The position numbers and the translations under genes are program-made. Shown here piece after piece: positions 2,044-20,551 of a DNA stretch of 39,738 bases. The first letter of the stretch is position 1. Each line of letters opens with the position of its first letter. Location: positions 1 through 39,738 of the forward strand of contig JAKSNC010000016.1 of the NCBI GenBank assembly GCA_024400195.1, in the 5' to 3' direction. The notes beneath the pieces were generated by a model. That model did no database searches. It saw nothing but the letters and a program-made list of their open reading frames with translations, and was not told the origin of the DNA. This DNA comes from Bacteroidales bacterium. Lineage in GTDB: Bacteria > Bacteroidota > Bacteroidia > Bacteroidales > F082.

Positions 2044-3094
2044 TACGATGTTCTTGTCTGCAAGATTTTCTGACTTTACATCAAGAAACTTGGCAGAAAA
2101 TGATAGGAAAAACACCGAATTATAATGAGGGCGAACTGTTCAGGACGATTCTTAAAGACTTCATTGATATGAACCACGAACTGACACTGCTTGCTGATAG
2201 GATAGACTGGCGCTATTTCGAGAAGGCGTTTGCGTCCTCTACTCCAATACCGGCTGTCTGGCTGTTCGGGAAGATGGCTGAGGAATCGTTGGTGGTGTCG
2301 GACACTATTGTGCAGGGCAACAACACGACGTTTCCGACAGATGTCAGGTTGTGCAAGAAGGTGATAGACGGCTGCAGTAGGATAGTTCATACGGAGAATC
2401 TCTCTCAGAGACAGACCTATACGAAGATCAGCAGGGAACTGCTCCGTACGACGTACAACAGCGAACATCCGAAGCGTCACAGGAAAGCAGTCGCGGCGAT
2501 GAGGAATCTTCGTACAATCGCCGGCCGCCAGATGCGGGAACTGGAAAGGGTGATGACGAAGGAGCTGCGCAAGACGTACGAAGAAGAAATATCCGTCTAC
2601 AACAGGGTGCTGTCCCAGACACCTCACAGTAAGGACAAGGTGTACAGCATCCACAAGCCGCAGACGGCATCCGGGAATCGGAAACTGCCGGAGCCCCCGG
2701 CCTATGACCGTGGCGGACGCGGTGTGAAGGCGGTCGTGGGAGTCAGGGTGATCACACCGGGCAAACCAAATAAATCCGACACAGCGTATGACAGGAAGAA
2801 GAAACGGTATCCGTTCAGGCGCAGGGCGGGCTTTGAACCGGTTTTTGGTCATCTGAAGAAAGATTATCACATGCAGGACAACTTCCTGAGTGGCAGAGAA
2901 TCAGCTTCAATCAACGCAATGTTGGCCGCAACGGGTTGGAATCTAAAGAAAACGATGAAGTACCTCGCGAAAAAGAACGCGAAGACTTTGTTTGTCTTGT
3001 TACAAATCCTATTCAAAGGCCCTCAATATAAATTACAGACTGCTTGAGTAAGCAGTCGTTAAGGATTTATTATGTAATGTTTCTTGAACATCGT
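2044..3094 (+). mobile_element. Probable extent of an IS5-like insertion sequence remnant
   Basis: TACGATGTTC at 2044-2053 is repeated in inverted orientation at 3085-3094, 46 bases before the transposase start and 37 bases after its stop. These may be the inner parts of terminal inverted repeats. No clean target duplication could be assigned, so the boundaries are tentative. Confidence 0.35.
2100..3047 (+). pseudogene. IS5/IS1182-like DDE transposase with internal deletions
   Basis: The 315-residue frame matches a common Bacteroidales DDE transposase in separate blocks. It has the N-terminal WRYFEKAF segment, then jumps directly to VSDTIVQGNNTTFPTD, then runs through RTIAGRQMRELER to SIHKPQTA, then jumps to AYDRGGRGVK, and ends with IEP-like FEPVFGHLKKDYHMQDN. 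Family members are usually well over 400 residues, and two central pieces are missing (about residues 46-68 and after residue 210), including part of the RNase H-like fold. The reading frame nevertheless stays open. It is probably inactive. The stretch at residues 47-65 is unlike the family and may be scar sequence. Confidence 0.75.
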
Positions 3095-12619: not shown

Positions 12620-13288
12620 GTGAGCAGTAAAAACAAATTGCAGAGATTCGCCGAAAACCTCACATTCGACAACCTTTTCCAATATTCGTACGAGCGTGTC
12701 ACCGCCGAAGGCTTCCCATATAAAGGCCGTTGGAACGAATTTTTCAAGAACGACAACCCTATTGTTTTGGAACTCGGCTGCGGCAAAGGCGAATACACCG
12801 TCGGACTTGCTAAGGCGCATCCGGAGATGAACTTCATCGGCGTTGACATCAAAGGAGCGAGAATCTGGCGCGGACTCACCACGGCCCGCGACGGCAAAAT
12901 GCCCAACGTCGCCTTCATTAGAACGCGTATTGAGTTGATAGACAATTTCTTCGATAAAGATGAAGTCTCAGAGATTTGGATAACATTCCCCGACCCGCAA
13001 CCTCAGAAATCGCGTGAACGCAAACGCCTCACGGGGCCGATGTTTTTGGAACGCTACCGCCATTTCCTCAAGGAAGACGGTGTCGTCAATCTCAAAACCG
13101 ACAGCGAACTGCTTTACGAATACACTAAAGAAGTCGTAAGAGAGGGAAACTACCAAACCTTCTACTCAACAGACGATTTATATTCCACTCCGGACGATTT
13201 GGAAGTGAAAAACATACGCACGTTCTACGAACAAATGTGGCTCGCTCAAGGACTGACAATCAAATATTTACGATTTGGGATAAGATAA
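12620..13288 (+). CDS. trmB: tRNA (guanine-N7-)-methyltransferase
   Basis: The 222-residue protein starts with GTG, 11 bases after the previous stop. It has the SAM motif ELGCGKGEYTVGLA at about 51-64, GVDIKGARIWRG, and the signature WITFPDPQPQKSRERKRL that defines TrmB. It forms m7G46 in the variable loop of tRNAs. It is probably co-transcribed with the HU/SPOR gene. Its last ~50 bases overlap the long form of the small RiPP-like ORF in another frame. Confidence 0.95.
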   Translation: MSSKNKLQRFAENLTFDNLFQYSYERVTAEGFPYKGRWNEFFKNDNPIVLELGCGKGEYTVGLAKAHPEMNFIGVDIKGARIWRGLTTARDGKMPNVAFIRTRIELIDNFFDKDEVSEIWITFPDPQPQKSRERKRLTGPMFLERYRHFLKEDGVVNLKTDSELLYEYTKEVVREGNYQTFYSTDDLYSTPDDLEVKNIRTFYEQMWLAQGLTIKYLRFGIR

Positions 13289-13563
13289 TTGTTGATTGTA
13301 AATTATTTAAAAAGTTAAATAAAAAACTTGAACTTAACAAGCAAGTAGTGGCAAAATTAAATGAAGTTGTGGGCGGAAGAGATCATTTTTCTACTATATG
13401 CCTTACAAAACAGACTTGTGCGCAAGATACCATCCAAGACCCAACATGGGCGGATCTAAAAGGTTTTCCGTGGTGTGAAGGCAATTGGACTTCAGACTTT
13501 ACATGCACTCCATCAAATTATGAAGGACATAAAACTTGCTGGACAGCACCTATGGGTGTTTGA
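13237..13563 (+). CDS. RiPP-like precursor peptide with double-glycine leader (start uncertain)
   Basis: The meaningful part begins at about 13303. A leader containing KKLNKKLELNKQVVAKLN is followed by VVGG (glycine codons at 13372-13377) and a 62-residue core with five cysteines, many Thr/Ser and three aromatic-glycine segments. The LxLNKxxxAxLN plus GG layout is that of Bacteroidetes class I lanthipeptide or GG-Bacteroidales natural-product precursors, which are cleaved after GG by a C39-type peptidase transporter. The odd point is the start. No ATG, GTG or TTG is in frame between 13240 and the leader; the only one is the ATG at 13237 inside trmB, which would add ~25 residues. Either a non-standard start is used or the start codon has been lost. 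No LanB, LanC or C39 transporter is present in the window. Confidence 0.55.
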   Translation: MARSRTDNQIFTIWDKIIVDCKLFKKLNKKLELNKQVVAKLNEVVGGRDHFSTICLTKQTCAQDTIQDPTWADLKGFPWCEGNWTSDFTCTPSNYEGHKTCWTAPMGV

Positions 13564-13572
13564 TAGAGATTA

Positions 13573-13614
13573 AGGTGTGTCAAAAGTGAGATCTAATCCA
13601 TTCTTGGCACACCT
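13573..13614 (+). promoter_or_regulatory. Hairpin between precursor gene and downstream genes
   Basis: AGGTGTGTCAA (13573-13583) pairs with TTGGCACACCT (13604-13614), 11 bp with one G-U pair and a 20-base loop. It begins nine bases after the precursor stop and has no T tract. In peptide operons such stems often act as partial terminators or as 3' stabilisers of the precursor mRNA. That role is inferred here. Confidence 0.4.
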
Positions 13615-13633
13615 GATTGTAATTCAATGTATT

Positions 13634-15061
13634 ATGAAAAGAAATCTCATACTTGTATTTGTAACAATCATTATTGAATCGTTTGCATATCCGCAGGCCG
13701 ACAACAGCATATTTGTCAACGCTATTGTGACTAATAACAAGGGCATGTTTTTGAAGGACGTTGCAATATACGATAACAATAATACTTTAATCGGGATTAC
13801 AAATAGAGATGGCAAGACTGAATTTCACGCGTATAGCAACGACACTGTCTTTTTTTCACACATCGGATTTGAGAGAAAAGCTGTAAAAATAGACACTTTA
13901 TCATCATTTGCAGTAAAAGACGGTATTTATTCCATGCTTGTTGTTTTGGAAAAGAAGCCACACATATTGCCCGAAGCCGTCGTCGTTGAAAACGCCCCTC
14001 ATCTTGCATATAGCAACAAAGACATCTGGGTGTCGAACTACAAAGTGACAAACGATGGGTTATATCTGATTGTTGACAATATTTCCGAGCATACTTTGAT
14101 TCTTCTGAGTCACGAGCAAGACACACTGTCGAAAATAAAGATAGATGACGATTTTGAAAATTTTTATGAAGATGCCTTTGGAAATATACACTTGTATAGT
14201 GCAGACTCTGTCTATCAGACCTTTTACGATGGTGAAAAGTTAAATTTTATATATGGTAACGACTACAAGACATTTAGCCAGGTGCTATTACCCGTTAAAG
14301 TTGTGACCGACAGCATTTTGATAACGCAGAAATATGGTTTATTGTATCAGGAGATTTTTTACTACAAGGTACATCGCCGTACAAAAGAGTTCGGTTTACT
14401 TGCCGACTTGATCGGCTCGGCTTGTGAGGCTGCAAAATTCTTTTGGATTGATGTTAGAAGAGATGCGATAATAGACCGTGTAATGGCTGAAAACCCAATG
14501 TTCGTCAACCCTGACAATGTGCGGTTTGGGAACGATTTGTTATTTCTTGAACAAGATAATGATGTTTTACCAAATGCCTCAATAAATGAGAAAGAAATTT
14601 ATAACAACACTATTTTGAAACATTTTTATAATTCTGCTTACTTCACATTTACCCCTATCTATTGCCCGATAGAGTTTATCAACGATACCATTTATATATT
14701 TGATTTTGAAAATGATAAACTTATGAGGTTTAACGAAGATGGAACCTTTGTTTCCGAAAGTGATATGACGTTTCACCGAACAACATATTTTAAAAACATC
14801 AAGATTAACAATCCATGGGACAACAACATTATTGTTGATAAAGCAATTGGCAAATGCTACGCCCAGTTTTCAACCGATGGCATCGTAACACTGAAGGAAA
14901 TAAACTTAAAAGACGGTACAATCCATCACGAAATCAAGCTTTCAGACCATTATTTTCCAACAAACATTCAGATTTACAACAACTTTGTGTATTACATCTT
15001 CATCGATTCGCGCAAACAAATGGGCGGCTGCAGAAGCCTCTACAAAATGGAATTGAAATGA
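13634..15061 (+). CDS. Secreted protein with carboxypeptidase-regulatory-like N-terminus
   Basis: The 475-residue form starts at the ATG at 13634, which gives a signal peptide (MKRNLILVFVTIIIESFAYPQ); the upstream in-frame ATG at 13577 would spoil it. Residues ~25-100 form a CarboxypepD_reg-like beta-sandwich (VTNNKGMFLKDVAIYD, then GKTEFHAYSNDTVFFSHIGF, ending VVLEKK). The rest has repeated beta-strand segments (FGNIHLYSADSVYQTF, FINDTIYIFDFENDKLM) compatible with a six-bladed propeller. I recognise no catalytic site. It lies in an AT-rich island downstream of the RiPP-like precursor and upstream of the metallopeptidase, so a linked exported function is plausible but unproven. Confidence 0.6.
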   Translation: MKRNLILVFVTIIIESFAYPQADNSIFVNAIVTNNKGMFLKDVAIYDNNNTLIGITNRDGKTEFHAYSNDTVFFSHIGFERKAVKIDTLSSFAVKDGIYSMLVVLEKKPHILPEAVVVENAPHLAYSNKDIWVSNYKVTNDGLYLIVDNISEHTLILLSHEQDTLSKIKIDDDFENFYEDAFGNIHLYSADSVYQTFYDGEKLNFIYGNDYKTFSQVLLPVKVVTDSILITQKYGLLYQEIFYYKVHRRTKEFGLLADLIGSACEAAKFFWIDVRRDAIIDRVMAENPMFVNPDNVRFGNDLLFLEQDNDVLPNASINEKEIYNNTILKHFYNSAYFTFTPIYCPIEFINDTIYIFDFENDKLMRFNEDGTFVSESDMTFHRTTYFKNIKINNPWDNNIIVDKAIGKCYAQFSTDGIVTLKEINLKDGTIHHEIKLSDHYFPTNIQIYNNFVYYIFIDSRKQMGGCRSLYKMELK

Positions 15062-15141
15062 ATATTGAAAATAAGTTAGGGACTGTCGGAAAATGTTGAA
15101 AACTTTTCTAATAAATTGATTAATAATTCGTTAGAATTTTG

Positions 15142-15149
15142 TATCTTTG
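15142..15149 (+). promoter_or_regulatory. Candidate upstream promoter of the metallopeptidase operon
   Basis: TATCTTTG matches the -7 consensus and lies 222 bases before the metallopeptidase ATG. A transcript from here would include the hairpin at 15164-15205. The 15062-15371 stretch holds this promoter, the hairpin, a second promoter and no convincing gene. Confidence 0.45.
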
Positions 15150-15163
15150 ATGTCGGGAAACAA

Positions 15164-15205
15164 AATTCCCCCAACCACAGTAAAAAAACGAAAATTGGGG
15201 GAATT
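15164..15205 (+). promoter_or_regulatory. Stem-loop in the leader of the metallopeptidase operon
   Basis: AATTCCCCCAA (15164-15174) pairs perfectly with TTGGGGGAATT (15195-15205) around a 20-base A-rich loop. It lies 15 bases downstream of the TATCTTTG element. A smaller TCCGG/CCGGA stem follows at 15247-15265. No T tract follows, so it is not a standard terminator. It could be a regulatory leader or part of a dispersed repeat. Confidence 0.4.
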
Positions 15206-15281
15206 GCAAAAAAACTCTGCCCCTGCCGTAGAAAATAGACGAAAAATCCGGCCAAAACGACCGGAATGAGATATAAAAACG

Positions 15282-15289
15282 TAACTTTG
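15282..15289 (+). promoter_or_regulatory. Candidate proximal promoter of the metallopeptidase operon
   Basis: TAACTTTG matches the -7 consensus and lies 82 bases before the ATG at 15372. Together with the element at 15142 it would form a tandem promoter pair. Confidence 0.45.
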
Positions 15290-15371
15290 ATGAGTCGAAC
15301 GCAGAAAACGGATGGGACCAGTCGCTGCTTCGCTCAAAACAAAAACATTAAACGACAATCCCTGTTTTATT

Positions 15372-16556
15372 ATGAAAAAATCAGTCGTCATCATCGCCTT
15401 TTTTATGTCGTTTGTCAGTGCTGTTGCGCAGACAGAGCAGTTTCATACCGACATGAAGTTGCGTGATTCATTTTGGCTTGACACGACGTCTGCCGATTTC
15501 CAAAATATTCTGGATTTGTGGGAAAATTATAAGTTTTGCGTCTTTTATGATTGGTGTAAACTGCAGGAAGATTCGCTGTGGGAGCCAAAGGGCCCTTTGT
15601 TTTGGGAAAGGTCGGAAAGATGCAAATACAAAAATCCAGACTGGATCTTGCAGAGTCTTCAACTTGTTCCGTATGACTACATATCTGGTAAAGAACTATT
15701 AATCGGCATTGAGAAACGTAACGATACACTTTTCGAGTTACGGACAATGTTTTATGACCAAAGCAACGATTCTATCAAAATGAGAGGTGTCTTTACACTA
15801 CCTGTGGTAAAGCATTCCGACTCAGACTATAAATTCTTTACAAAATTATCGTTGATAAAGCCGACCCTGCAAAAATATCAAATAGGATGGCTCACGTTCC
15901 TTTATCCTGTTGGTTACAATTTCGACAATGATTCGGCAGAATCGACATTCGTCGCTGCCGACAGTTTTGTCAAAGCACTCGGATTAGATAATCCAAAACA
16001 ATTTGAATATTATCTGTTTGAGACGAGAACAGATTTTTGGCGTTCGATAGGTGTTGATGTCAGCCCGTATGACTTCATCGGTTGTTCAAGAGTTTATTCG
16101 GGAGGACGCTGTTTCAACGAATGCAATATTGCTTTTTACACATGCGGAGGGGAGTCATCAGCACACGAACTTCTACATTTCCTTATATATCAAAAACATC
16201 CTGAAAGGGAATCAAGTGAATTTGAGGAAGGAGTCTGCTCTTATTTTGGCGGTCATTCAAACGAGACGAAAGATGTCTTGTTGCTCAGGCTGAAAGACTG
16301 GTTGAACGAGAATCAGCAGATTGACTTGTCAGCCTCTTTGTCTGGTTATGCTGATTTTACTGAAAACTATACATACATGATACAGATGGTAATATGCGAA
16401 ATGGTTTATAAAAAAGGTGGCATCGAAATGGTATTTGAAATGCTTTTCAGCATTTCAAATAATGATGATGAATATGATGCCATTGAAAAATATCTCAGCA
16501 TCAAAAGAAAAAATCTAAATAAAACATTCAGAGAATATCTAAATAACAATTATTAG
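15372..16556 (+). CDS. Secreted HExxH zinc metallopeptidase, uncharacterised
   Basis: The 394-residue protein starts at an ATG giving a signal peptide (MKKSVVIIAFFMSFVSAVAQ). Residues 265-269 read HELLH, a zincin motif, inside the hydrophobic context SSAHELLHFLIY. Glutamates at 285-286 in FEEGVCSYF are candidates for the third zinc ligand, as in gluzincins. The rest matches no family I know. It is expected in the periplasm or outside the cell. With the IS element removed, the next gene would lie about 26 bases downstream, so the two probably formed one operon. Action on a neighbouring peptide or protein is a possibility only. Confidence 0.65.
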   Translation: MKKSVVIIAFFMSFVSAVAQTEQFHTDMKLRDSFWLDTTSADFQNILDLWENYKFCVFYDWCKLQEDSLWEPKGPLFWERSERCKYKNPDWILQSLQLVPYDYISGKELLIGIEKRNDTLFELRTMFYDQSNDSIKMRGVFTLPVVKHSDSDYKFFTKLSLIKPTLQKYQIGWLTFLYPVGYNFDNDSAESTFVAADSFVKALGLDNPKQFEYYLFETRTDFWRSIGVDVSPYDFIGCSRVYSGGRCFNECNIAFYTCGGESSAHELLHFLIYQKHPERESSEFEEGVCSYFGGHSNETKDVLLLRLKDWLNENQQIDLSASLSGYADFTENYTYMIQMVICEMVYKKGGIEMVFEMLFSISNNDDEYDAIEKYLSIKRKNLNKTFREYLNNNY

Positions 16557-16577
16557 ACATGAGATACACTTTATTTA

Positions 16578-17206
16578 GAATCTGTTTTGAAATCATTGGA
16601 AGAATTTGTTAAGCATAATCTGGGCGAAAGCCAGCTGGACCATAGCCTCGGCCGTGTCCGCCAGATACTCATAGTCGATGGTCAGGTGCCTGAAGTTCTC
16701 TAACCAGGCAAACGAGCGCTCCACTATCCACCGTTTGGGAAGTATAGGAAACTTGGTAGGACATTCATCAGGACGGAGAACAACTTCCACTGTCCATCCG
16801 AATTTCTTTGCAACCCAGTCTCCGAGTGTCCCCATGTAGCCTTCATCTGCAAGTATCTTGACAAGGCGGGGAAACTTGTGTTCAAGCCTCTCAATTACTT
16901 TCGGAGCGCCCCTGCTGTCGTGAAGGTTGGCCTCGTGTACAGCTACCGCCATTGGCAGCCTATCTTGTTGATGTAAAGGATAGCGTTCATAATGTCACGG
17001 AGCGAATGTTTTCTGGTTCTTTCTTGCGCGTTAATGATTTTTTTATAACTTGCCACTGATTGTCAGTGAGGTTGGTTGAATATTCGTACATAACTTTAAT
17101 TGATTGGTACTCATAAAGTTACGAAAAATATTTCAATTAACCTACTGATAATCAATTATTTATATCACTTTATAGCAAAATTTTTGATTCATTTCAAAAC
17201 AGATTC
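16578..17206. mobile_element. IS5-family deletion derivative with TIRs and TTA target duplication
   Basis: Perfect 16-bp terminal repeats, GAATCTGTTTTGAAAT at 16578-16593 and its inverse at 17191-17206, bound a 629-bp element. TTA flanks both sides (16575-16577 and 17207-17209), the TNA-type duplication known in parts of the IS5 family. It sits between two genes of the secreted-protein operon, and its right end is only nine bases from the next start codon. Its terminal repeat differs at two positions from that of the MITE at 19171-19354. Confidence 0.85.
16593..17091 (-). pseudogene. IS5-family transposase, frameshifted and internally deleted
   Basis: On the minus strand an N-terminal piece starts at 17091 with MYEYSTNLTDNQWQVIKK, then shifts frame to RKHSLRDIMNAILYINKIGCQWR. 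The middle of the gene, including part of the DDE site, is missing. The C-terminal piece MAVAVHEANLHDSRG to the stop at 16593 is intact (a 119-codon frame, 16593-16952), with the motifs ILADEGYMG and RWIVERSFAWL. The join is at a TGCCAATGGCGG-like sequence that could encode both CQWR and LPMA, so the deletion probably formed by short-homology recombination. The enzyme is dead. Confidence 0.85.
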
Positions 17207-17214
17207 TTACATTG

Positions 17215-18828
17215 ATGAAAAAAAACATCCTTATATTATTTCTCTTTTTTGCGAACTTTACTTATGCGCAAAATGATGCTGCTCTTTACAAAGACAGGGC
17301 GATGTCTTCCTTCCTTGCAAAGGATTATATATCAGCGAATCAATATTTTGCCAAATTGCACACTATTGAAGATATTTATATGGATTTTGAGGATTTGCTT
17401 ACATATTATGTGTCAGCAGAAAAGGTAAAGGATTCCATTTTGTGTAAAAAATTGCTCTTTGAAATAGTGCAACATAATTGTTTTGAACGTTATAATTTGA
17501 CCGATAGTATAATAATAGGTTTCTGTTTGAAAAGTAGATATTATTGGAATACTATAGATTCCATTATCGTTCAAAGAGAGCAGGAAAGGGGAAAATACAG
17601 ACCATATATTGACTCTCTTTCGGTAATGGCAAAAAATGATATTTCGATTAGACGTGAAGCATGGTCGGAAGAAAGAGATAAAAAGATGTCCATTATTGAT
17701 TCTGTCAATACGATGAAATTAAAATGTCTGATTCAAAAATATGGTTTTCCAACATGGAGACTTGTCGGAAGATCTGCCTCTGAACAAGCATGGCTTATTG
17801 CCCAGCATTCTGATAAACAGTTTATAGCCAAATTTATAAAGTCATATAGAGCGGCAGCAAAAGAGAATAATGCAGACAAACGGCATCTCGCTTTAATGGA
17901 AGATCGCGTCAGAATGAATGACAGACGCCCGCAAATATACGGGACACAACTTGCTGGTTTTTCAAAGGAAAGTATTGGATTCTATCCTATTGGGAATATC
18001 AAAGAGATTGATTATAGAAGACAGTCAGTCGGTTTAGAACCTATAAAAGACTATGCTAAATCTTTTGGATTAGATTCTATAGCGATTAGTCCATATTATT
18101 TTGATTACTTTTATTATTACAAAAACCTATGTGCAGCTTATAAAGCATATCTTCAAAATGATTTTACAAAAGTTGCTTCTATACTTCAAATAGGCTCAGG
18201 ACATTATCCATTCGCCAAGGATTTGAAATTGCTATGTGATGCTTATCTTTCGATGAATGATACTGTCAATGCGATTGCTTCAGCTCGTCAGATGGCTTTG
18301 TGCGGATTTGATATTAAAAGTGACAGCTTATTTTGTGGATTTATACATGATACATTAGTCAACGAATCAGAAATTTTACTTGAAGAATACATGATGCAGT
18401 TGGATCAAAACGGCAATGCTTATTTTGATTCAATATGCTCCTTTAATGATGCAAAAAAATTAATTGATACCCAAAACTATCCTCGTTATAGTATAGATGC
18501 TTGGAATAATGTTTTGCCATCCTTGATAAAAAAAGAGTCTTTAAATCTCGGCATTGATGATTATCAACATTTTTTTGATTGGCTATATGATCAAGTCATT
18601 GTTGGTAATTTCCATTTATTTGATTATGCGGAACTGTACGACAAAGTGTATTTCAGACTGTATGGCAGTCTTTTTTATGGTCAATTGGTTATGGACTCAG
18701 TTCCTATCTATCAATACGAAAAACTTGACGAAAGACGTGAATCTATAAATCTTCCAAACATGGAAATATGGTGCCAAATTCAGGACACGAAAATCTTAAA
18801 TGGATGTTTGCATGTTAAAAAATTATAA
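17215..18828 (+). CDS. Secreted DUF6624-domain protein
   Basis: The ATG at 17215 gives a signal peptide (MKKNILILFLFFANFTYAQ); the TTG just before it is unlikely to be used. Residues ~20-125 resemble TPR-like helices (AALYKDRAMSSFLAKDYISA). Residues ~135-285 match DUF6624 as I know it: GFPTWRLVG, AWLIAQHSD, LMEDRVRM, PQIYGTQ, then RRQSVGLEPIKDYAKSFG. A further helical region follows to residue 537. The biochemical role of DUF6624 is not established. The IS element ends nine bases before the start codon, so the gene has lost direct contact with its upstream operon. It is followed after five bases by the ATP-grasp remnant. Confidence 0.75.
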   Translation: MKKNILILFLFFANFTYAQNDAALYKDRAMSSFLAKDYISANQYFAKLHTIEDIYMDFEDLLTYYVSAEKVKDSILCKKLLFEIVQHNCFERYNLTDSIIIGFCLKSRYYWNTIDSIIVQREQERGKYRPYIDSLSVMAKNDISIRREAWSEERDKKMSIIDSVNTMKLKCLIQKYGFPTWRLVGRSASEQAWLIAQHSDKQFIAKFIKSYRAAAKENNADKRHLALMEDRVRMNDRRPQIYGTQLAGFSKESIGFYPIGNIKEIDYRRQSVGLEPIKDYAKSFGLDSIAISPYYFDYFYYYKNLCAAYKAYLQNDFTKVASILQIGSGHYPFAKDLKLLCDAYLSMNDTVNAIASARQMALCGFDIKSDSLFCGFIHDTLVNESEILLEEYMMQLDQNGNAYFDSICSFNDAKKLIDTQNYPRYSIDAWNNVLPSLIKKESLNLGIDDYQHFFDWLYDQVIVGNFHLFDYAELYDKVYFRLYGSLFYGQLVMDSVPIYQYEKLDERRESINLPNMEIWCQIQDTKILNGCLHVKKL

Positions 18829-18833
18829 AACCT

Positions 18834-19025
18834 ATGATTCTTGTTTTCTCAATATATAGCGATCCTTCAACAAATGATGTGTGTGATTGGCTTTCGCGTT
18901 TTGAATGTGATTTTTATAGAATTAACTGTATTCAAGATATTTGTCTGTTCCTTTCAAAACACACTGCGACAATTGGAAATTCTAATAATTTGGACACTTT
19001 GGTTGAAAGCATTTGGTATAGGCGT
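18834..19025 (+). pseudogene. Truncated N-terminus of an ATP-grasp peptide maturase (GwsG-like)
   Basis: The first 64 codons encode MILVFSIYSDPSTNDVCDWL, then FYRIN, then ESIWYRR. This is the pre-ATP-grasp domain layout of RiPP maturases such as the grasp-with-spasm enzyme GwsG and the microviridin ligases, where an MILIFS-type start, an FxRxN segment and a WYRR motif recur. Full enzymes are about 300-330 residues. Immediately after WYRR the sequence becomes the antisense of an IS3-type OrfA remnant and then the MITE, so the ATP-binding and catalytic regions are gone; the frame runs on to 19313 only by chance. It lies five bases after the DUF6624 gene. Confidence 0.6.
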
Positions 19026-19373
19026 CGACCTTCCAGACCGCCTTCCTCATACTATTTGACCCAACGCTTCAAGGTCGGTTCTGTGATGTTGTTTATCGCA
19101 CAGAACTCTTTGGTTGTCCGCCGGCTCGTCTTGAACCGACGGATCAGGAACTCTTTTTCAAGAGGATTAAGAAGCTGTTTTGATTTGTTCGATAGGGATT
19201 TGCATTATATTTTCGAGCAGATTTTTCTTGTTTTGCGACGAAGAATAGTGGACTATTCGAGGAGTGAAACGAGGAAAAGATGCCGGAAAGATATGCAAAT
19301 CGCATCGAAATGACATACAATATAATTATCATTGTAAGAAATCAAAACAGCTTCTAAGAAGCTGTTTTGCCAT
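19020..19373 (-). pseudogene. IS3-type OrfA (helix-turn-helix) remnant, interrupted by a MITE
   Basis: The minus-strand gene starts at ATG 19373 behind a good Shine-Dalgarno site (AAAGGAG, 19381-19387) and encodes MAKQLLNPLEKEFLIRRF once the MITE and its TAA duplication are removed. It continues with TSRRTTKEF and ITEPTLKRWVK, the helix-turn-helix of IS3 OrfA-type proteins, then a TAG stop (19052-19054), then YEEGGLEG. The rest is missing where it meets the ATP-grasp fragment. Both the stop and the insertion inactivate it. It lies 68 bases downstream of prfB on the same strand. Confidence 0.65.
19171..19354. mobile_element. 184-bp MITE with 16-bp perfect inverted ends
   Basis: GAAGCTGTTTTGATTT at 19171-19186 is mirrored exactly at 19339-19354, and TAA flanks both ends (19168-19170, 19355-19357). 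The element has no gene; a small palindrome GAATAGT-GG-ACTATTC lies inside at 19244-19259. Its ends match those of the IS5-family element at 16578-17206 at 14 of 16 positions and share its 3-bp duplication type, so a related IS5 transposase probably moved it. The right flank after TAA repeats GAAGCTGTTTTG (19358-19369), so a 15-bp direct repeat also brackets the insertion. Confidence 0.75.
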
Positions 19374-19440: not shown

Positions 19441-20551
19441 TTATTTCTGTCCGAACTCCATCAGATAAGCCTTGATGAACTCGTCAATTTTACCGTCCAT
19501 AACGCCTTGCACGTTACTCGTCTGGTAATTGGTGCGATGGTCTTTCACTCTGCGGTCGTCCATGACGTAGCTGCGAATCTGCGATCCCCATTCGATTTTC
19601 TTTTTTCCGGCTTCAATCTTGTTTCGTTCTTCCATACGATGCTGAAGTTCTTTGTCGTATAACTGTGATTTGAGAAGTCGGAGTGCGTTCTCTTTGTTTT
19701 TCGGTTGGTCGCGTGTTTCAGTATTTTCAATGAGGATTTCCTCTTCAACGCCGGTATAAGGGTCTTTGTACTGGTAACGGAGGCGTACACCAGATTCGAC
19801 TTTGTTGACGTTTTGTCCGCCGGCTCCGCCAGACCTGAACGTATCCCAGCTCAGTTTCGACGGGTCAATGGTGATTTCGATTGTTTCATCAATGAGCGGA
19901 GTGACGAAGACGGAACTAAAAGACGTCATTCTTTTGCCTTGCGCGTTGAACGGAGAGACGCGGACGAGGCGGTGAACGCCGTTCTCACTCTTTAGATAAC
20001 CATAAGCATAGTCGCCGTCAATCTCCATTGTGACGCTTTTTATGCCGGCATCATCGCCATCAAGTATATTGCTGATTCTGACTTTATATCCGTGATCTTC
20101 GGCATAACGCATGTACATTCTCATCAGCATCTCGGCCCAATCCTGTGATTCGGTACCGCCAGCTCCGGAGTTGATTTTGAGGACACAGCTCATACTGTCG
20201 GCCTCTTCGTGAAGCATATTCCGGAACTCGAGTTCTTCAACGAGTTTGATAACGGAATCATATTGTTTGTCAACTTCTTCTTCTGTAGCTTCACCATCTT
20301 TTGCAAAGTCGAAGAGAACGCCGAGGTCGTCATTTGCCGACACGATGGCATCATAAGCCGTCACCCAGCTTTTCACATCACGTAGCTGACGCATCACGTT
20401 TTTGCCGTTTTTGGCATCATTCCAAAAGCCGTCAGCCTTCGTCTTTTCTTCTAATTCATTGATTTCTATTAGTTTGCCGTCAATGTCAAAGATACCTCCT
20501 CAAGGCATCAATCCTCTTACAAAGTTCCTTTTGATTGTCTAATGTAATCAT
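19441..20551 (-). CDS. prfB: Peptide chain release factor 2 with programmed +1 frameshift
   Basis: Translation starts at ATG 20551 and reads 21 codons to ALRRYL, followed by an in-frame TGA (20486-20488). The context AGGAGG, three bases, CTT TGA C is the classical RF2 frameshift site, in which the ribosome skips one T and reads CTT GAC. The CDS is therefore 20551-20489 joined to 20487-19441, giving 369 residues. The main frame has the SPF tripeptide that reads stop codons (about 199-201) and the GGQ peptidyl-hydrolysis motif (about 244-246). RF2 recognises UAA and UGA, and the TGA in its own gene gives negative feedback. It starts 28 bases after rsmA. Confidence 0.96.

Follow-up and report, generated by a model that had tools for sequence, protein, structure and literature searches.

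A probable graspetide-cluster relic between trmB and prfB

The window analysed here, 39,738 nucleotides, is the whole of contig JAKSNC010000016.1 (C8 in our numbering) of the Bacteroidales bacterium assembly GCA_024400195.1, which comprises 1.84 Mb in 54 contigs and is 89.67% complete. Between two genes that we take to be trmB and prfB it holds an island of five genes or gene pieces, all on the forward strand, which starts directly after the trmB stop codon. In order, these are a peptide gene with a Gly-Gly (GG) leader, genes for a CarboxypepD_reg-like protein, a protein with an HELLH motif and a DUF6624 protein, and a short open reading frame (ORF), gwsG', corresponding to the first 65 residues of an ATP-grasp peptide maturase; the middle three products are secreted, with signal peptides assigned by eye. 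In our view the DUF6624 gene and gwsG' are probably a dead internal piece of a graspetide-type cluster, and the island most likely represents what remains of a cluster of an already described type, unusual in one respect, its leader. The best clue is the position of the DUF6624 gene directly ahead of gwsG', as a similar order occurs in intact clusters.

The truncated maturase gene

The product of gwsG' aligns with positions 1-71 of the 318 positions of TIGR04192, up to the WYRR motif, with 21.8 bits (E 9.6e-5) in a single-protein scan and 18.6 bits (E 9.1e-4) in a scan of the whole genome. Both scores are far below the cut-off of 230 bits, as befits the start of a gene and not a working enzyme. 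In the whole-genome scan such an E-value alone is at noise level: other genomes gave two apparently spurious hits of 22 residues (3.7e-4 and 8.6e-4), and a match below the cut-off turned up in one of 14 control genomes. With a local profile of 12 GwsG proteins, gwsG' scored 26.3 bits, whereas none of the 1549 shuffles scored, out of 2000 made, exceeded 7.5 bits. In a six-frame control over 554,365 bases, covering the window and 39 loci from its own genome and genus, the only other match above the threshold was the full-length gene of locus L049, which had been fetched for its GwsG gene. That this ORF is the start of an ATP-grasp maturase, as had been proposed in a preliminary description of the sequence, is thus borne out. 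There is no second TIGR04192 match in the own genome at E 0.001, and gwsG' has no match in the plasmid and phage collections; a sub-threshold match of 14 bits to an unrelated Pfam family is taken as chance.

The frame of gwsG' begins exactly at a start codon, 5 bases after the DUF6624 stop, and ends at residue 65, where it enters the reverse of an OrfA-like fragment. No TIGR04193 SPASM gene stands beside it, the next gene after the break being prfB as judged by eye, and none was found among the 10 other window ORFs (NCBIfam, E 1e-10), a search for TIGR04193 that did not extend to the rest of the genome.

Gene order in intact GwsG loci

The GwsG genes collected from other genomes fall into 12 strong ones (>220 bits; 11 above the cut-off of 230) and 10 of a weaker class (110-134 bits). 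The upstream side was viewed for 11 of the 12 strong genes (L204 was left out), and in eight of these 11 (L196, L199, L200, L201, L205, L206, L207 and L208) another gene overlaps the gwsG start or lies at most 20 bases from it. L194 and L197 are not abutted, and 241 bases separate gwsG from its upstream neighbour in L193. The weaker class is outside this count; within it, another gene lies 6 bases ahead of the second gwsG of L200, and several members are arranged in tandem pairs. A TIGR04193 SPASM gene follows gwsG in all five loci scanned, three times above the cut-off, and in L208 gwsG is followed by an ABC transporter gene whose best matches are to peptide cleavage and export types, below their cut-offs. 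A GG peptide upstream of a secreted gene and gwsG is the order of several intact GwsG loci.

Among the neighbours themselves, the abutting protein of L208 is thioredoxin-like, while others resemble DUF6624. The upstream and downstream gwsG neighbours in L193 and the neighbour in L196, combined in one alignment, match the alignment of DUF6624 proteins from the genus over 136 columns, which span approximately the DUF6624 domain (hhalign E 2.2e-8, probability 95). The L207 neighbour matches it at E 2.7e-4 and probability 42 by hhalign, and with 24.3 bits (E 6e-7) by hmmsearch, and a profile of the L193/L196 proteins detects the neighbours in L199 (28.5 bits) and L200 (25.6 bits). Compared with the propeller-like, metallopeptidase and GwsG alignments, the same neighbour sets gave hhalign probabilities of at most 3.2. 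The preliminary description had found the combination of DUF6624 with an ATP-grasp maturase unfamiliar; the order of a DUF6624-like gene, gwsG and a SPASM gene is in fact present in intact loci, and the pairing is also described in PMC13097080 (2026). According to that paper, DUF6624 is frequent in graspetide groups 18, 20, 23 and 42, and the biochemistry of its pairing with the ligase is still open. The DUF6624 gene of the island adjoins a graspetide-synthetase gene as in these groups, and 65 residues do not allow the ligase to be assigned to one of them.

Two further loci deserve mention here. L049 (8949-9944; G023:C13), from a member of the genus, carries a full-length GwsG-like ATP-grasp gene of 114 bits, below the cut-off, with no SPASM-like or precursor-like gene seen beside it by eye; it is the only other GwsG-like gene, of the weak class, among 35 genus relatives. 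In L206 (15644-17332; G047:C609) a secreted protein of 562 amino acids, beta-propeller-looking by eye, overlaps the start of an intact gwsG. As a candidate for a propeller-like component of GwsG clusters it was rejected, the comparison with the window's propeller-like profile being negative.

The grasp-with-spasm clusters (TIGR04192 for GwsG, TIGR04193 for the SPASM protein), which we take to be branch 5 of the ATP-grasp loci, share with the island a GwsG start, a secreted gene abutting gwsG and a GG-leader peptide upstream on the same strand; unlike them, the island has a gwsG that breaks off after 65 residues, lacks SPASM and transporter genes behind it, and has a leader that appears not to be of the GwsG-adjacent kind. 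In the parts of PMC8939145 consulted, the Bacteroidetes ATP-grasp/SPASM loci constitute branch 5, and almost all of them contain cluster 23, an uncharacterised family that is often secreted and lipidated. We think that cluster 23 overlaps DUF6624, a point on which those parts of the paper are silent.

The precursor-like peptide

The product of the first ORF of the island, 13237-13563, runs through ...FKKLNKKLELNKQVVAKLNEVVGG into a core with five Cys. Only the part from 13309 to 13563 is precursor-like, and there the frame reads KKLNKKLELNKQVVAKLNEVVGG, followed by the five-Cys core. The class I lanthipeptide leader model NF038153 (lant_leader_L1a) gives 21.9 bits on the whole ORF, just below its cut-off of 22, 22.1 bits on the part from 13309, and 26.7 bits for the peptide in the whole-genome scan. 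A local profile of 13 L1a leaders gives 22.5 bits, a score as good as which was reached by none of 4804 scored shuffles (5000 made). The GG-leader peptide with a five-cysteine core that the first inspection had pointed out is thereby upheld. Like the L1a lanthipeptides of class I, it has the leader motif KKL.LNK..VA.LN, a GG site and a core containing Ser, Thr and Cys, whereas its motif and GG lie about five residues closer together than those of the 13 aligned L1a leaders. Unlike class I lanthipeptides, it is found without LanB (PF04738), of which there is none in the own genome, at its 89.67% completeness, or in 35 genus relatives, and its start codon has apparently been lost. LanB occurs in two of 60 genomes overall, both from other families, and the consulted parts of PMC10352776 report none in the Bacteroidales genomes screened there; the same parts link GG leaders to C39 transporters.

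The sole in-frame ATG, GTG or TTG ahead of the leader motif is GTG 13237, which lies within trmB (ending at 13288), and the next in-frame starts, GTG 13348 and GTG 13369, fall within the leader. At the head of the leader there is no usual start codon, and ATT and ATA codons are present. The simplest reading of this arrangement would be that the junction with trmB cost the precursor gene its 5' end, with the start codon; the use of a rare start, ATT or ATA, is a less simple possibility. To judge from their frames, both the peptide gene and gwsG' look dead. A search for an intact precursor matched, among 60 relatives, the own genome alone, and gave nothing in the genome-contig and plasmid collections; among the 60 relatives scanned NF038153 exceeds its cut-off in the own genome only.

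That both RiPP matches (to ribosomally synthesized and post-translationally modified peptide families) are chance matches of short sequences is very improbable in our judgement. Their scores do lie near or below the cut-offs in single-protein scans, TIGR04192 does produce 22-residue matches near E 1e-3, and gwsG' itself has the unrelated 14-bit Pfam match. Chance is disfavoured by the shuffle and six-frame controls, and gwsG' opens at a start codon and is placed and oriented as expected in an operon; NF038153, moreover, is above its cut-off in just 9 of 395 genomes of the phylum, the own one included.

The secreted genes

The three secreted genes probably start at ATG 13634, ATG 15372 and ATG 17215. 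The first product, whose putative propeller fold was assigned by eye, matches PF13715 with about 15 bits, below the cut-off of 32.2; the ORF from 13577 also matches NF053692 (BamP) with 21.2 bits over residues 20-139, far below the cut-off of 230. Counting the own genome, 54 of 60 genus genomes contain a homologue, mostly at about 30% identity. The HELLH protein matches no Pfam or NCBIfam family at E 1 and its best match in the Protein Data Bank (PDB) has an E-value of only 0.86; HExxH and EEG are conserved in all four HELLH-type sequences aligned (the partial relatives L042 and L050 were left out), and matches occur in six of 60 relatives, own included. For the DUF6624 protein, which clearly matches its Pfam family (PF20329), there are matches in nine of 60 relatives, again with the own genome counted. 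Among its seven homologues from the genus, those of L039 and L040 align to near the C-terminus, four end at about residue 485 and one runs off its contig; a search of solved structures returned nothing useful (E 0.036). A pattern scan of genome contigs for DUF6624 found none, and was discarded as insensitive, as a separate search of the genomes does find relatives.

Across the 39 loci fetched from the own genome and the genus, GwsG occurs only in L049, which shows none of the three secreted proteins; no genus locus fetched for a secreted protein contains GwsG, and no leader-like small ORF was seen in these loci by a strict motif scan and by eye, which is a weak test. Since the secreted genes are found in relatives without the maturase, the membership of the CarboxypepD_reg-like and HELLH genes in the cluster is doubtful. 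The preliminary description had taken the island for a decayed RiPP locus with all three secreted genes as members, and had named as grounds for abandoning this an absence of RiPP family matches together with relatives carrying the secreted genes alone. The GG precursor and the truncated GwsG-type ATP-grasp gene survive from this proposal and both ORFs match RiPP families; relatives do carry the secreted genes with no maturase seen beside them, and the inclusion of all three genes is not sustained. Of the three proteins that it named, DUF6624 is confirmed, PF13715 is matched only below the cut-off, and the HELLH protein has no Pfam family.

Modules of DUF6624 and propeller-like genes that lack a RiPP enzyme also exist. 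On contig C36 of the same assembly (L036, 9153-10665), a DUF6624 remnant stands behind a propeller-like paralogue, with a copy of the miniature inverted-repeat transposable element (MITE) described below nearby; the remnant shares about 90% DNA identity with the window gene over about 100 bases and marks a second, decayed propeller-DUF6624 module. L051 (5122-10923; G026:C99) has three tandem propeller-like secreted proteins with identical first 19 residues beside a DUF6624 remnant, and in another genus relative (L037 and L038, G020:C11) DUF6624 and HELLH homologues are on one contig, about 19 kb apart. One could therefore consider the propeller-like, DUF6624 and metallopeptidase genes as a stand-alone surface module of the genus, behind which gwsG' was dropped as a fragment. 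The modules on C36 and G026:C99 and the genus DUF6624 loci, which read without GwsG, speak for this possibility. We nevertheless hold it to be somewhat unlikely, with gwsG' opening at a start codon 5 bases past the DUF6624 stop in an operon-like manner, and gwsG likewise sitting behind a neighbour in the eight of 11 strong loci.

Origin of the island

If the island descends from a graspetide-type cluster, a GG-leader precursor would have been cross-linked in the cytoplasm by the GwsG ATP-grasp ligase through side-chain ester or amide links, a SPASM protein probably sharing in this step. Cleavage of the precursor at Gly-Gly and export through a C39-type ABC transporter would have come next, and the exported peptide or its target may then have been acted on by the secreted DUF6624 protein. 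The left end, with the precursor start, and the right end, with most of gwsG and any SPASM and transporter genes, would since have been lost. That this particular precursor was the substrate of this ligase would be the least certain step, and we place the peptide's membership in the graspetide cluster close to even.

A number of observations weigh against such an origin. On the side of DUF6624, the hhalign link to the genus alignment is non-significant for the neighbours in L199/L200, L201, L205 and L206 and for that of the second gene in L200, these other five comparisons giving probabilities of at most 6.8; the Pfam DUF6624 model matches none of 10 GwsG-adjacent proteins scanned, one of them the thioredoxin-like one; and the DUF6624-like alignment of three proteins is thin, two of the three coming from one locus. 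None of seven genus DUF6624 loci has GwsG (in L046 the downstream side is off the contig), so that DUF6624 is not tied to GwsG within the genus. The precursor and the DUF6624 gene are separated by 3.7 kb of other genes, and with the genome 89.67% complete the missing parts may be outside the assembly. On the side of the leader, a profile of nine GwsG-adjacent leaders gives the peptide 6.8 bits, and 55 of 4992 scored shuffles did as well; with the match to the L1a profile, this makes the leader one of lanthipeptide type.

An L1a leader near GwsG is unusual: no such pair was seen in the eight other L1a genomes. In six of these, TIGR04192 matches occur, each either on a different contig from the leader or 92 kb or more from it; in the fragmented genome G348 a linkage may go unseen. 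None of eight L1a loci with flanks, drawn from six of the eight other L1a genomes, holds GwsG or DUF6624 (E 0.01), and in the two scanned, L182 and L185, LanB and LanC lie beside the precursor. CarboxypepD_reg-like genes in L1a loci were considered as a link to the island and rejected; they match the propeller-like profile weakly (L185 23.4 bits, L189 18.9 bits), and the PF13715 match in L185 (35.7 bits) is to a domain too common to count.

Taken together, the type of the leader, the lack of LanB and the lack of L1a-GwsG loci suggest that either the precursor is a foreign scrap or the cluster had an unusual leader. On the first view, two unrelated RiPP scraps would share a landing site of mobile DNA, a 5'-truncated class I lanthipeptide precursor derived from a LanB/LanC cluster and a DUF6624-gwsG piece derived from a graspetide cluster, with resident secreted genes between them; for DUF6624 and gwsG' this coincides with the best explanation. 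This seems to us quite possible, if somewhat short of even: it would account for the L1a leader, for L1a genes that keep company with LanB and LanC and not with GwsG or DUF6624 in the loci and genomes just described, and for CarboxypepD_reg-like proteins, which are common in the genus. It sits less easily with the finding of all pieces on one strand within 5.7 kb, in the order GG peptide, secreted gene and gwsG that several intact GwsG loci display, and with the absence of LanB from the own genome and its 35 genus relatives, which offer no evident local source for a lanthipeptide cluster. One could also speculate on a hybrid cluster, in which an L1a leader guided a Cys-rich peptide to GwsG/SPASM and not to LanB/LanC, with DUF6624, the metallopeptidase and the propeller-like protein as extracytoplasmic partners, which we consider unlikely. 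The best explanation and its rivals overlap in part, and the likelihoods attached to them here are neither exclusive nor meant to sum to one.

Should a decayed graspetide-type cluster be the correct explanation, the range of grasp-with-spasm graspetides would extend to a lineage in which few other traces of such clusters are seen, and a further case of DUF6624 beside a ligase would be added. An intact neighbourhood of L1a leader and GwsG, if found, would show that leaders have been exchanged between two RiPP classes. No product can be demonstrated from a broken piece in a single assembly.

Mobile elements, repeats and flanking genes

Table 1 Features of the island and its surroundings (positions in the window)
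Feature	Coordinates	Strand	Basis
trmB (presumed; tRNA m7G methyltransferase), intact left neighbour	12620..13288	+	ORF list; relatives' homologues
Precursor-like gene with L1a-type GG leader and five-Cys core	13237..13563	+	NF038153; shuffles; start-codon scan
Secreted CarboxypepD_reg-like/propeller-like protein	13634..15061	+	PF13715 below cut-off; homologues; membership doubtful
Repeat of 151 bases upstream of the HELLH gene	15213..15363		Copies on three other contigs
Secreted HELLH protein with downstream EEG, gluzincin-type metallopeptidase by motif only	15372..16556	+	Membership doubtful
IS5-family element, internally deleted	16577..17207		NF033580 90 bits (cut-off 110); inverted arms; edges
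Secreted DUF6624 protein, intact frame	17215..18828	+	PF20329 68 bits (cut-off 27)
gwsG', coding for the N-terminal 65 residues of a TIGR04192 (GRASP_w_spasm) ATP-grasp peptide maturase	18834..19028	+	TIGR04192; local profile
OrfA-like transposase fragment with internal stop, abutting the maturase truncation	19029..19166	-	Translation; name by resemblance
MITE with TAA at both sides	19167..19355		Repeat copies in genome
prfB (presumed; release factor 2), right neighbour	19441..20397	-	ORF list

The island had been described as broken by an IS5 derivative, a MITE and an OrfA fragment. Mobile debris does lie at its truncated end (Table 1), whereas the IS5-like element, with a transposase remnant of 119 amino acids (16593-16952, reverse strand), inverted ends and TTA at both sides, sits between genes and interrupts none. 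Elsewhere in the genome the MITE is present at least nine more times at a length of 183-208 bases, and a tenth time with gaps (40 of 72 candidates scored), and pieces of it of about 50-90 bases terminate many contigs; longer copies of the insertion sequence probably break the assembly. The repeat ahead of the HELLH gene, which may represent a shared leader or a small mobile element, recurs on C36 (93% identity over its whole length), C35 (92% over 119 bases) and C34 (84% over about 105).

No prfB was present in 29 short and nine longer trmB loci of relatives, so that an empty site is not demonstrable. Homologues of trmB, at 65-74% identity, occur in 38 of 39 genus relatives searched, and the gene upstream of trmB is retained in most. 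Elsewhere in the window, sorting domains of the type IX secretion system (T9SS) were found among the proteins, which together with the relatives point to Bacteroidota, and positions 2100-3044 hold a fragment of an IS5-family transposase (NF033578, 157 bits against a cut-off of 275).

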